Source: Streptomyces sp. NBC_01268
GTDB taxonomy: Bacteria > Actinomycetota > Actinomycetes > Streptomycetales > Streptomycetaceae
Direction: 5' to 3'
NCBI RefSeq assembly: GCF_036240795.1
Contig: NZ_CP108454.1
Coordinates: forward strand, 5,022,001 to 5,086,000
DNA: 64,000 bases
Shown: piece after piece, positions 45,876 through 48,895 of the stretch
Layout of the letters: each line of letters starts with the position of its first letter
How positions within the stretch are numbered: the stretch's first letter is position 1
Translations under genes and position numbers: made by a program
Notes under the pieces: model-generated
Seen by the model: only the letters and a program-made list of their open reading frames with translations
Told to the model about the DNA's origin: nothing
Databases searched by the model: none

Positions 45876-47612
45876 ATGGCGCAGTCGTTCGTACCTCAGC
45901 AGCCCGGACCACCACCACCCGCCGCCGACCTGCGCGGCGCACCCGCGGGCAGCGAGGCCACCCGGCTGCTGTGCGCCGGCACCTACCTCGACGACCGGTT
46001 CCGGGACGCCGTCATCGACGAGCTCTACGTCCACGAGGAGCGCGTCGCCGCGCCCTCCCTCGGCCTCGACGCCGCCCGCGTCCTCGCCCACGCCCTGCGC
46101 GCCCGCCGGATCGAACTCGGCTGGGCCGCCGCGATCCTGGCCCTGTGGATCATCGCCTTCCCGGTGACCAAGGGCCTGGTCATGCTCTTCGTCCTGCCCT
46201 TCCTGCTGCTCGGGATCGCCCGCTGGGTCCGCGGCCGCTCGGCCCGCGCGCCCTTCTACCGGACCGTCCCGGCCTTCCTGCTGCGCTGGTACGGGCGGCT
46301 CACCCTGGTCCAGTCCGTCCTGCTCCTCCTCGTGCTGGCCCTCGCCGGCGAGGAGACCCGCTGGGAGCTCCTCGGCGACCTCGGCGAATGGGGCGAGCTC
46401 CTCGGCCTCGCCCTCAGCGGCGCCACCCAGGAACTGTGGGGCATCGGGCGCCTGGAGGTCTGGCTCACGATCGCCGTCCCGCTGCTGCTCGCCTGGGCGG
46501 TGGCCACCCAGCGCGGCCAGTTCGCCAGGGCGCTCACCGGCGAGCTGTCGAAGGAGCGCTTCGCCGACGTCGCGGCGGACCCGGCGGAGCAGGCCCAGGG
46601 CGCCCGCTTCCGGCGGCTGCGCGACCGGATCAGGACCGAACAGCACGCCCGGCTCGTGATGTACCGCTCCGAAAACCCGTTCTGCGGCGCGGGCGAACCC
46701 TACGAGCCCTGGTCGCTCTCCGTCGAGCTGCGCCCCCGCAAGAACCTGGACGGCAAGGCCCCCGAACCGCTCGACAACAGCGCGATCATGCGGCACATCG
46801 TCCCCCTCGTGGAGGCCCTGCGGGTGCCCTCCCCGCACAGCTCCCCGCAGATCGCCGCCGCCGTACGGGACCGGCTGCGCCAGCTGGAGATCGACGAGGT
46901 CGTCTTCCTGCCCGTCGACGGCCTGCCGACGCGGGCGGCCGCCCCGTACACCCCCGAGTTCTTCGAGCTGCACCGCTCCTCCGCCATCGAGGAGGGCGGC
47001 GAGCCCCGCCGGCACTTCCTGCGGATCAGGGTCGGCGGCTGGGGCGAGGAGATCGTCACCACCGTGTTCGTACGGGTCCACACCCAGGGCGGCATGCTCA
47101 TGCTGGAGGTCGCCCCGCACGTCCTGCGGCCGGTCGCCCCGCTCTACCGGTACGCCGACCGGATCGCCCACCGCTACCGCCACAACCACCACTTCGGCAA
47201 GGCCGTCTGGGCGCTCGGCCAGGCCCCGAGCTCCGCGGGGCAGGCCCTGATCACGATCGGCCGGGCCCTCGCCCACCTGTGGCGGCAGGCCACCGGCGGG
47301 CACGCGGGAGCCCTGCCCGAGGGGCCGCGGATCTCGGTCCGTGAGCTCGGCTCCGACGACGAGGCCTCGCTGTTCCAGGAGATGGACGTCAGCCGCTACC
47401 TGAAGAGCATCCAGGACCGGGTGGCGAACGGGGTGACCGTCGCCCTGCGCCAGGCCGGTTACGAGACCGCCGAGTTCGAGCAGAAGATCGTGCACGTCGC
47501 CGAGGGCGGGACGTTCATCGAGAACACCAAGGGGAACGTCACCATCGGCGACCACAACACCGTCACCAGCAAGTCCTTCACCACGACGAAGACCGGAGGC
47601 GACCGTGGCTGA
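45876..47612 (+). CDS. Large membrane protein with C-terminal RHIM-like motif
   Basis: 578 residues. After a Pro-rich N-terminus and a short helical region come two adjacent membrane helices (about 82-118), two more (around 140-160 and 195-212), then a ~330-residue cytoplasmic part of mixed alpha/beta character (EEIVTTVFVRVHTQGGMLML). The last ~35 residues read GGTFIENTKGNVTIGDHNTV plus a Thr/Lys tail. The motif V555-T-I-G-D-H-N-T-V563 fits the RHIM core pattern (I/V)-x-(I/V)-G-x-x-N-x-(hydrophobic), and a near-identical motif begins the next protein. No domain is recognised in the cytoplasmic part. Start ATG follows GGGGGAGCC. Confidence 0.78.
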   Translation: MAQSFVPQQPGPPPPAADLRGAPAGSEATRLLCAGTYLDDRFRDAVIDELYVHEERVAAPSLGLDAARVLAHALRARRIELGWAAAILALWIIAFPVTKGLVMLFVLPFLLLGIARWVRGRSARAPFYRTVPAFLLRWYGRLTLVQSVLLLLVLALAGEETRWELLGDLGEWGELLGLALSGATQELWGIGRLEVWLTIAVPLLLAWAVATQRGQFARALTGELSKERFADVAADPAEQAQGARFRRLRDRIRTEQHARLVMYRSENPFCGAGEPYEPWSLSVELRPRKNLDGKAPEPLDNSAIMRHIVPLVEALRVPSPHSSPQIAAAVRDRLRQLEIDEVVFLPVDGLPTRAAAPYTPEFFELHRSSAIEEGGEPRRHFLRIRVGGWGEEIVTTVFVRVHTQGGMLMLEVAPHVLRPVAPLYRYADRIAHRYRHNHHFGKAVWALGQAPSSAGQALITIGRALAHLWRQATGGHAGALPEGPRISVRELGSDDEASLFQEMDVSRYLKSIQDRVANGVTVALRQAGYETAEFEQKIVHVAEGGTFIENTKGNVTIGDHNTVTSKSFTTTKTGGDRG

Positions 47613-48003
47613 CCAGGGCCAGGACCAGGGCCAGGGCCGGAGCAGGCCCGCGGGCGGCATCAGCATCACCAACACCCAGGGCAACGTGACCATCGGCGAC
47701 CAGAACACCGTGTCGTACACGGTGCACGGCACCCAGCCGGAGCGCGACGCCGCGCAGGAGGAGCTGCTCCAGGCCATCCGCAGGCTCCGCGGCGACCTCG
47801 GCGGGGTCGTCGCCTCCGAGCAGACGGCCGCCCTCGACGCCGAACTCTCCGACGCCGAGGACGAGATCGAGGGCACGGGCTCCGCGGGCACGGGCCGGCT
47901 GACCCGGCTCCGCCAGGCCCTGACCGACGCCGGTGCCGTGACCGGCATCCTCGCCTCGGGCGTCGCCGTCGGCCAGGCCGTCGGCGCGCTGCTCGGAGGG
48001 TGA
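47605..48003 (+). CDS. Small partner protein with N-terminal RHIM-like motif
   Basis: 132 residues: a Gln/Gly-rich lead, the motif ISITNTQGNVTIGDQNTVSY (V28-T-I-G-D-Q-N-T-V36 core), a helical region (RDAAQEELLQAIRRLRGDLG and TGRLTRLRQALTDAG), and a Gly/Ala/Val C-terminal helix (VTGILASGVAVGQAVGALLG) that could insert in or bind a membrane. GTG start with GGAGG 5 bases upstream, overlapping the preceding gene by 8 bases. The shared motif suggests that the two proteins co-assemble through it. Confidence 0.78.
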   Translation: MADQGQDQGQGRSRPAGGISITNTQGNVTIGDQNTVSYTVHGTQPERDAAQEELLQAIRRLRGDLGGVVASEQTAALDAELSDAEDEIEGTGSAGTGRLTRLRQALTDAGAVTGILASGVAVGQAVGALLGG

Positions 48004-48004
48004 G

Positions 48005-48895
48005 ATGAGCGGGTACGGGGGAGAGGCGCGCTGGAACGACGAGAAACAGAGCTGGGAGACGGTCACCGGACCCCCCGGCCCTCAGCCGTCCCAGCCCGCG
48101 CCGCAGCCGCAACCGCTCCACATCCAGCCGGTCCAGCCCCTGCCGGTGCAGCCGCAGCTGCCTCCGCAGCCCCCGTCGTACGACCCGACCGTGGGCCCCG
48201 GCCCGGGTCCCGCTCCCGGCTCCTTCACGACGGTGGCGCCCGGCCGGTCGCGGAACGCCGTCGTGGCCGGGGTCGTGGTCGCGGTCCTCGTCGCCGGGGG
48301 CGTCGGCGGCTGGCTGGTGTGGGGCCGTGACGGGAACACGAAGGGGACGGCGGGCTCGCCGGGCACCTCGGTCAGCGCGCCCGGCGATCCGGGGCGGACC
48401 TCGGACCCGGCCTCCGGCTCGCCGTCCGACTCGCCCTCCCCGTCGGACGGTTCGGCCCCCATGGACGACATGCCCCCGCCCGGCTTCCACGCGGTCGAGG
48501 ACCCGGAGGGCTTCGTCATCGCCGTCCCCGAGGACTGGAACCGCACCTCCTCCCAGGAGGGCGTCTTCTACAACTCGCCCGACGGGAAGAGCCTGGTGCA
48601 GATCTTCACCCTCGCGGCCCCGGACACCACGCCGTACGAGTCGCTCCAGCAGACCTCCCGGACCCTCGCCGGGAATCCGGGCTACGAGCAGATCTCCCTG
48701 GAGCGGACCGGCGAGGGCGACACCGCCGAGCTGGTGTACGCCTACGACCGGGAGGAAGGCCGCCGCAAGGTGGTCGACCGGGCGTTCACCGGCACCGACG
48801 GGCGCCAGCACGCGATCCTGGTCGCGGGGCCGGAGACCGACTGGCCGAAGCAGCGGGAGAACCTGACCACGGCCCTGGAGTTCTTCAGGCCGTGA
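48005..48895 (+). CDS. Single-pass membrane protein with extracellular kinase-ECD-like domain
   Basis: 296 residues. A Pro/Gln-rich cytoplasmic N-terminus begins RWNDEKQSWETVTGPP. One membrane helix (about 84-106), a Ser/Asp/Pro linker and a C-terminal domain starting GFHAVEDPEGFVIAVPEDWN follow. The same layout and motif (DPEGFxxxVPxxW, then TPYES...YxxI, then IL/ALY...W...R) are seen in the extracellular domain of the kinase at 2-1036. The start ATG is 1 base after the previous stop, so it belongs to the RHIM-like operon. Last 11 bases overlap the convergent gene. Confidence 0.78.
   Translation: MSGYGGEARWNDEKQSWETVTGPPGPQPSQPAPQPQPLHIQPVQPLPVQPQLPPQPPSYDPTVGPGPGPAPGSFTTVAPGRSRNAVVAGVVVAVLVAGGVGGWLVWGRDGNTKGTAGSPGTSVSAPGDPGRTSDPASGSPSDSPSPSDGSAPMDDMPPPGFHAVEDPEGFVIAVPEDWNRTSSQEGVFYNSPDGKSLVQIFTLAAPDTTPYESLQQTSRTLAGNPGYEQISLERTGEGDTAELVYAYDREEGRRKVVDRAFTGTDGRQHAILVAGPETDWPKQRENLTTALEFFRP

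Follow-up and report, generated by a model that had tools for sequence, protein, structure and literature searches.

Jointly changing tags suggest that a Streptomyces membrane receptor switches on its neighbouring effector by tag-to-tag stacking

Why do two adjacent genes of a streptomycete encode proteins that differ over most of their length and are nearly identical over one short stretch? Fungi and bacteria are known to use amyloid signalling between NLRs and effectors, and animals use it in necroptosis; the locus raises the question of whether tag pairing of this kind couples a membrane protein to its neighbour. The window analysed here is a whole stretch of 64,000 nucleotides of Streptomyces sp. 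NBC_01268 (contig NZ_CP108454.1), to which all positions refer. On its forward strand three genes of the 8.5-Mb genome lie in the same direction. Gene R (45876..47612) encodes a 578-aa receptor-like membrane protein with four predicted transmembrane (TM) segments; gene E (47605..48003) encodes an effector-like protein of 132 aa; and the third gene (48005..48895) encodes 296 aa. Since the tags of R and E change together in homologues, we suggest that R switches on E by stacking of tag upon tag, like amyloid-forming immune proteins of fungi and animals.

The sequence-only reading of this DNA had pointed to near-identical stretches in R and E, and both are present where it placed them. NTKGNVTIGDHNTV of R (residues 550-563, codons 47523-47564) and NTQGNVTIGDQNTV of E (residues 23-36, codons 47671-47712) are identical at 12 of 14 residues. 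The description of the former as the last residues of R has to be amended, as R runs on to residue 578. Profile matches delimit a C-terminal motif of R, GGTFIENTKGNVTIGDHNTVTSK (47505..47573, forward strand, E 2.5e-13), and an N-terminal motif of E, GGISITNTQGNVTIGDQNTVSYT (47653..47721, forward strand, E 4.4e-10). Against the 8.5-Mb genome a motif-class profile, built from 20 sequences with both window copies included, found only the R and E copies above noise, the next best match having an E of 2.53. In AlphaFold2 models the motifs sit in putatively disordered tails with pLDDT<50 (R residues 544-578 and E residues 1-44). Apart from the motifs, the two proteins are not notably alike (the mean local score of their bodies is 40.8, reached over far greater lengths), in keeping with the claim that their remainder is unrelated. 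The match between the motifs is real, and it recurs in homologues.

R and E are also tied together at the level of translation signals. The GTG start of E overlaps the end of R by 8 nt, and a ribosome-binding-like GGAGG (47595..47599, forward strand) lies within the last codons of R, so translation of the two genes is probably coupled. Close homologues of R share a conserved GGDRG tail, encoded by 47595-47612; as these codons coincide with the GGAGG and with the GTG start of E, the tail may be conserved for its role in starting translation and not for what it does in the protein. The genes around the cassette look ordinary. Upstream of R is what we take, by eye, to be a malate-dehydrogenase-like gene, and such an ORF occurs near 75 of the 124 R/E pairs described below; downstream neighbours are PEP-mutase-like, CMD and GntR/aminotransferase genes (Pfam). 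None of the three window proteins passes a curated cut-off in Pfam or NCBIfam, and none matches a PADLOC model (best E 0.066).

The TM region of R (residues 79-211; 46110..46508, forward strand) comprises segments at residues 79-97, 97-115, 140-158 and 193-211, predicted from hydropathy and modelled as long helices by AlphaFold2. Between TM3 and TM4 lies an acidic loop (residues 159-192; 46350..46451, forward strand) that is predicted, from hydropathy and charges, to lie on the extracytoplasmic side. Few parts of R vary as much or contain as many gaps as residues 161-200 (entropy 2.46-2.79, gap 0.52-0.26), and the loop may serve as a sensor. A conserved domain, predicted to be cytoplasmic, follows (residues 212-540; 46509..47495, forward strand). 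The model of R (mean pLDDT 70.1) gave no fold match at E<=0.001, weak helix-grip-type matches being set aside, and R has no PDB sequence relatives at E<=0.1. An NLR receptor was considered and rejected: Pfam scans found no NB-ARC or NACHT match in R, nor in 40 R-family members at E<=0.1, which agrees with the earlier view of an integral membrane receptor that is not of NLR type. PADLOC models gave no match to 40 R-family receptors at E<=0.001.

E is predicted to be a small helical bundle (47749..47994, forward strand), with AlphaFold2 helices between residues 49 and 130. The last of these, at residues 112-130, is a hydrophobic Gly/Ala/Val helix (AlphaFold2 and hydropathy), and the sequence-only reading was right to end E in this way. 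PDB searches with E gave no fold match at E<=0.001 and only sequence matches at E>=0.024. The nearest named family is DUF5955 (PF19380): E-type helical domains of paralogs match it, as do 17 of 40 E-family members at E<=0.1, and one paralog (L199) lies above the Pfam cut-off at 32.9 bits. The difference is that the window E stays below that cut-off (13.0 vs 27.1 bits, E 0.14). A search of open-licence PMC papers found none on DUF5955, and no model named Bell surfaced in Pfam scans of the window proteins and 40 E-family members. A DUF5955 ORF also occurs elsewhere in the window's genome (L153), by eye with no such motif. The third protein has a Pro-rich N-terminus, one TM segment (residues 86-104, hydropathy) and a C-terminal domain with weak resemblance to a T7SS-associated/PsbP-type domain (Pfam, NCBIfam). 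This domain is predicted to lie outside the membrane and the tags inside, the side being inferred. Sensing may fall to the variable extracytoplasmic loop of R, to the third protein, or to both.

Addressing whether the match is more than a local accident, we searched 295 genomes of the window's genus with R and E. E-like matches occurred in 125 genomes, at 131 places, and R-like matches in 166, weak tail included. The 131 E places and nine R places without a listed E gave 140 stretches and 124 usable R/E pairs; 16 loci were dropped, namely L014, L017, L018 and L037, whose stretches contain no R, L098, whose R is too short, and L126 and L137-L146, which have no E, or neither protein. ORFs were read from stop to stop, R and E boundaries were taken from profile matches, and trees were built by average linkage on receptor distances.

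The two motifs change in concert, which is the outcome of the co-variation check suggested for homologous operons. Mean motif scores over the 124 pairs are 71.0 for own partners, 42.6 for swapped partners and 27.1 for shuffled motifs, and in 93 pairs the own E ranks within the best 10% of the row. Jointly changed R/E motifs include ENTKGNVTIGDHNTV/TNTQGNVTIGDQNTV, ESAQGAVGIGDHNTI/GSVRGAFAIGDHNTV, DSVAGSTFAIGTHAQA/GDVSHSTFAIGSHAHA, EQASGAFAFGEHSVANN/GTAKGAFAFGAHSVANN, QAVNHSAFSVGGTNNTN/GDVTGSAFSIGGGNNTN and DMSGGAIATGSHGQA/SMSGGSIATGSHGRA. The cross score drops with receptor-body distance, from 81.7 among near relatives to 37.7-38.9 beyond 0.5. When cluster representatives were permuted, none of 20000 trials at any of five thresholds attained the observed mean; even so, the own E ranks strictly first in its row for only 19/63, 16/43, 12/33, 8/20 and 8/11 of the representatives, because related clades share motif types. 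Independent contrasts were 36 positive, 13 negative and 13 zero (n=62), then 24 positive to 7 negative (n=31), 18 to 3 (n=21) and 13 to 3 (n=16); with few deep clades they were not significant (6 to 4, n=10; 4 to 1, n=5). Genomes with two fetched modules keep them separate, own pairing scoring above cross pairing in 13 of 13, a comparison in which species phylogeny plays no part. Chance similarity is rejected by the own versus swapped and shuffled scores, the permutations, the contrasts and the distant paralogs described below.

Independent loss of one motif had been named beforehand as the observation that would count against a paired function. Scored by a loose RHIM-like pattern (hydrophobic-x-hydrophobic-G-x-x-N-x-hydrophobic), which both window motifs fit, 37 of the 124 pairs carry it in both proteins, 85 in neither, two in R only and none in E only, so the pairs pass that test. 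Being RHIM-like is thus a feature of some clades, and what is conserved is the agreement of one copy with the other. Loci with a single protein do not show one motif lost with both proteins kept. E with its motif is retained at L014, L017 and L018, whose genomes gave no R match, and R with its motif at L126, where no E was found downstream. At ten further loci, for which the top-scoring of several candidate ORFs was taken, the motifs match in L141, L145, L146 and L160 and do not in L126, L139, L140, L142 and L144, and L143 offers no candidate ORF. The unpaired and unmatched loci may have decayed, may be truncated at contig ends, or may rely on partners encoded elsewhere.

The co-variation would be equally well accounted for if the matched tags formed a stoichiometric, non-amyloid contact, by beta-strand pairing or a small beta-arch stack, that docks E on R with no templated polymerisation, and the AlphaFold2 model gives the R motif only short strands of low confidence (residues 546-550 and 553-557). 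We nevertheless regard this as unlikely. The copies match in ungapped segments with a median of 25 residues and 57% identity, as like stacking on like in register would require, whereas a 1:1 contact between different proteins would be expected to favour complementarity over identity. The motifs are also rich in Gly, Ser, Ala, Val, Thr and Asn, and the described amyloid signalling motifs are of similar composition.

The pairing extends well beyond close relatives of the window proteins. With a divergent family member as the query, matches were found in at least 138 of 197 genomes of the order at E<=1e-5. Among the matches listed, 33 distant loci (20 + 13) were picked by receptor similarity alone. 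With the best of several candidate ORFs taken at each locus and loci of other subfamilies as the comparison, the own next gene was the best motif match in 25 of the 33, drawn from 12 subfamilies. Adding all five usable loci of a phylum search gives 28 of 38 (L214, L217 and L222 match; L220 and L228 fail). Some of these motifs are very unlike those of the window, as in GGNQSVGNTGTTQTFG/GGNQSVGNSGTTQTFG (L204), DDNRVYANNNRGTMYAHN/DDNRVYANDNRGTLYAHN (L213) and QGGTSIIGNQAIGAGATA/SGGTHYVGNQAVGPGARA (L197). Eight of the 33 failed: L196 and L199 by 1-2 points, L201, L206, L242 and L244 (one subfamily) and L212 with similarity that is weak by eye, and L233, where a matching E-like ORF is visible by eye and another frame scored higher. 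Receptor relatives in whose next gene no matching motif was found are L139, L140, L142, L144, L220 and L228. Of the 296 genomes covered by the phylum search, nine matched the receptor, and six of the nine belong to the window's genus; in other genera the receptor is therefore either rare or too divergent to be reached with one query.

The effector domain is exchanged while the tags continue to match. In 16 of 35 classified loci, all 16 among the 33 distant ones, the partner is a TIR-like protein of CAP12/Pycsar type in place of the helical one (L202-L205, L207-L211 and L234-L240); PF10137 scored above its cut-off in all four of these partners that were scanned. The other partners read are small helical-looking proteins, some of them DUF5955-related. 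The two TIR-type effectors scanned against PADLOC, those of L207 and L211, match its candidate defence model PDC-S35. Separately, the distant receptor of L213 (3077-5041) has at its N-terminus an FHA domain, which the Pfam model FHA scores at 52.7 bits against a cut-off of 20.7.

Cassettes also occur on plasmids. R matched four of 72,556 plasmid records, and phage records gave no match to R. Two of the four plasmids were examined. NZ_CP054921.1 of Streptomyces sp. NA03103 (L246) carries the whole three-gene cassette in the same order, and its motifs, both shortened, match each other (ETAGAVGVGDHNIV/GEAGAVAIGDYNQV). NZ_CP107767.1 (L247) carries a distant R/E pair with a common motif (SGSIAGGHTVAQTNQT/HGPIAGGYHVQQTNQT). 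The latter pair lies downstream of genes annotated as an AAA-family ATPase and an ATP-dependent endonuclease, possibly a defence neighbourhood.

These loci bear on two further explanations of the matched tags. Both tags could be docking sites for a common third protein, such as the third gene product or a chaperone, and would match because both follow the same binder. A third-gene-like ORF does follow R/E in 107 of the 124 pairs, yet the other 17 pairs, where the search for one came up empty (in some cases at a contig end), match nonetheless, with scores of 55-98 where the 99.9th percentile of shuffled motifs is 50. The pair on NZ_CP107767.1 matches although its next annotated gene is on the other strand, and the third protein's C-terminal domain and the tags are predicted to lie on opposite sides of the membrane; common docking is therefore quite improbable. 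Gene conversion between the adjacent motif sequences could also keep the motifs similar with no function attached. Identical residues share the same codon in 65.2% of cases for own pairs, 62.4% for swapped related pairs and 63.0% for far pairs, with 57.0% expected from pooled codon use. This excess of own over swapped pairs is small, whereas the protein match is strong; the window's own motif contains synonymous differences; and the match persists beside different effector domains. The codon comparison thus disfavours gene conversion as the main cause, and we give it very little credence.

Overall, with a probability of roughly two in three, R and E constitute a membrane signalling module in which R recruits E and polymerises it by homotypic, probably cross-beta stacking. 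We infer direct contact, with the signal passing from R to E. The flexible, cytoplasmic C-terminal motif of R would pair with the matching N-terminal motif of E, and on activation, for which the variable TM3-TM4 loop and the third protein are candidate sensors, clustered R motifs would template the stacking of E motifs. Homotypic pairing of the tags is the firmest part of this proposal and very probably correct; that the E stack takes the form of an in-register cross-beta (amyloid-like) assembly is likely, with appreciable room for doubt. Stacking would concentrate the output domain of E at the membrane. The output domain in the window, a predicted small helical bundle that includes a hydrophobic helix rich in glycine, could plausibly perturb a membrane. 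Distant paralogs have a CAP12/Pycsar-type TIR domain in its place, which could plausibly act as an NADase. For a role in defence or cell death we see about even odds. The motif would then act as a private tag that wires each receptor to its own effector.

More broadly, the balance tips towards the view that there is in actinomycetes a large and so far undescribed class of amyloid-signalling receptors embedded in the membrane. In this class a private, fast-diversifying homotypic tag would wire each receptor to an adjoining effector whose domain, helical membrane-type or TIR, is exchangeable with the tag match kept, and cassettes can reside on plasmids. If so, bacterial amyloid signalling would not be tied to NLRs, and its reach would extend to envelope sensing through a non-NLR membrane receptor family with matched tags and exchangeable effectors. 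As orthogonal pairs provided by nature, the tags would show how amyloid specificity evolves. The 124 pairs allow an old question to be put directly to the test, namely which residues determine specificity in heterotypic amyloid seeding, and how two proteins go on matching while both change. No such non-NLR membrane module was recognised among the titles and abstract beginnings of the open-licence PMC papers listed.

How does the module compare with known systems? Its motif had been called RHIM-like and the three genes an amyloid-signalling module. The motif-paired operon, the non-NLR membrane receptor and the third gene (present in most pairs and in a plasmid cassette) all stand, and RHIM identity does not. 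Likeness to RHIM (RIPK1/RIPK3) and to fungal PP motifs is confined to the loose hydrophobic/G/N spacing seen in the window's clade. RHIM membership is rejected: the strict core (I/V)-Q-(I/V/L)-G-x-x-N occurs in none of the 124 pairs, and the proposed HMM search returned no match of the RHIM and PP Pfam models to the window proteins (RHIM at E<=1). In contrast to the RHIM core as given in PMC7885112, G-(I/V)-Q-(I/V)-G, the window motif has four residues between its glycines and T in place of Q, and the 85 homologous pairs counted above are not RHIM-like at all.

The closest parallel is the NLR/Bell amyloid signalosome of filamentous bacteria. As outlined in PMC7889193, its genes are adjacent or overlap, and a BASS motif is found both at the N-terminus of the NLR and at the C-terminus of the Bell protein, CHAT or TIR proteins being less frequent partners. 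Judged by PMC7889193, PMC9815663 and PMC8086366, the two arrangements have in common a short, diverse motif in adjacent or overlapping genes and their occurrence in multicellular actinomycetes; they also agree in an effector that can be a small bundle of helices, one of them hydrophobic, with TIR or CHAT proteins as the rarer alternative. By the account in PMC9815663, the BASS survey (Dyrka 2020) looked for motifs that recur in neighbouring genes for Bell and NLR proteins, and a module lacking an NLR would have escaped it. R differs in being an integral membrane protein with no NB-ARC/NACHT, the motif is C-terminal in R and N-terminal in E, the reverse of the positions outlined for NLR and Bell, and a third membrane gene usually follows. 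Given the membrane receptor and the reversed motif positions, we class R/E as BASS-like in its working and not as a member.

In Drosophila, PGRP-LC is the membrane receptor of the Imd pathway. Signalling there is RHIM-like (PMC7885112), and R/E would resemble it in that a membrane receptor engages a cytoplasmic adaptor via an amyloid motif, the difference being that Imd is a metazoan immune pathway. In bacterial conflict systems the effector-associated domains (EADs) likewise bring interchangeable effectors to a core system by homotypic contact; as characterised in PMC8195603 they are folded, mostly alpha-helical domains, whereas R and E share a short tail motif. Finally, the TIR effectors of CAP12/Pycsar systems (PF10137) provide the effector domain of distant paralogs of the R/E module, where the TIR domain is coupled to a membrane receptor by a matched motif.
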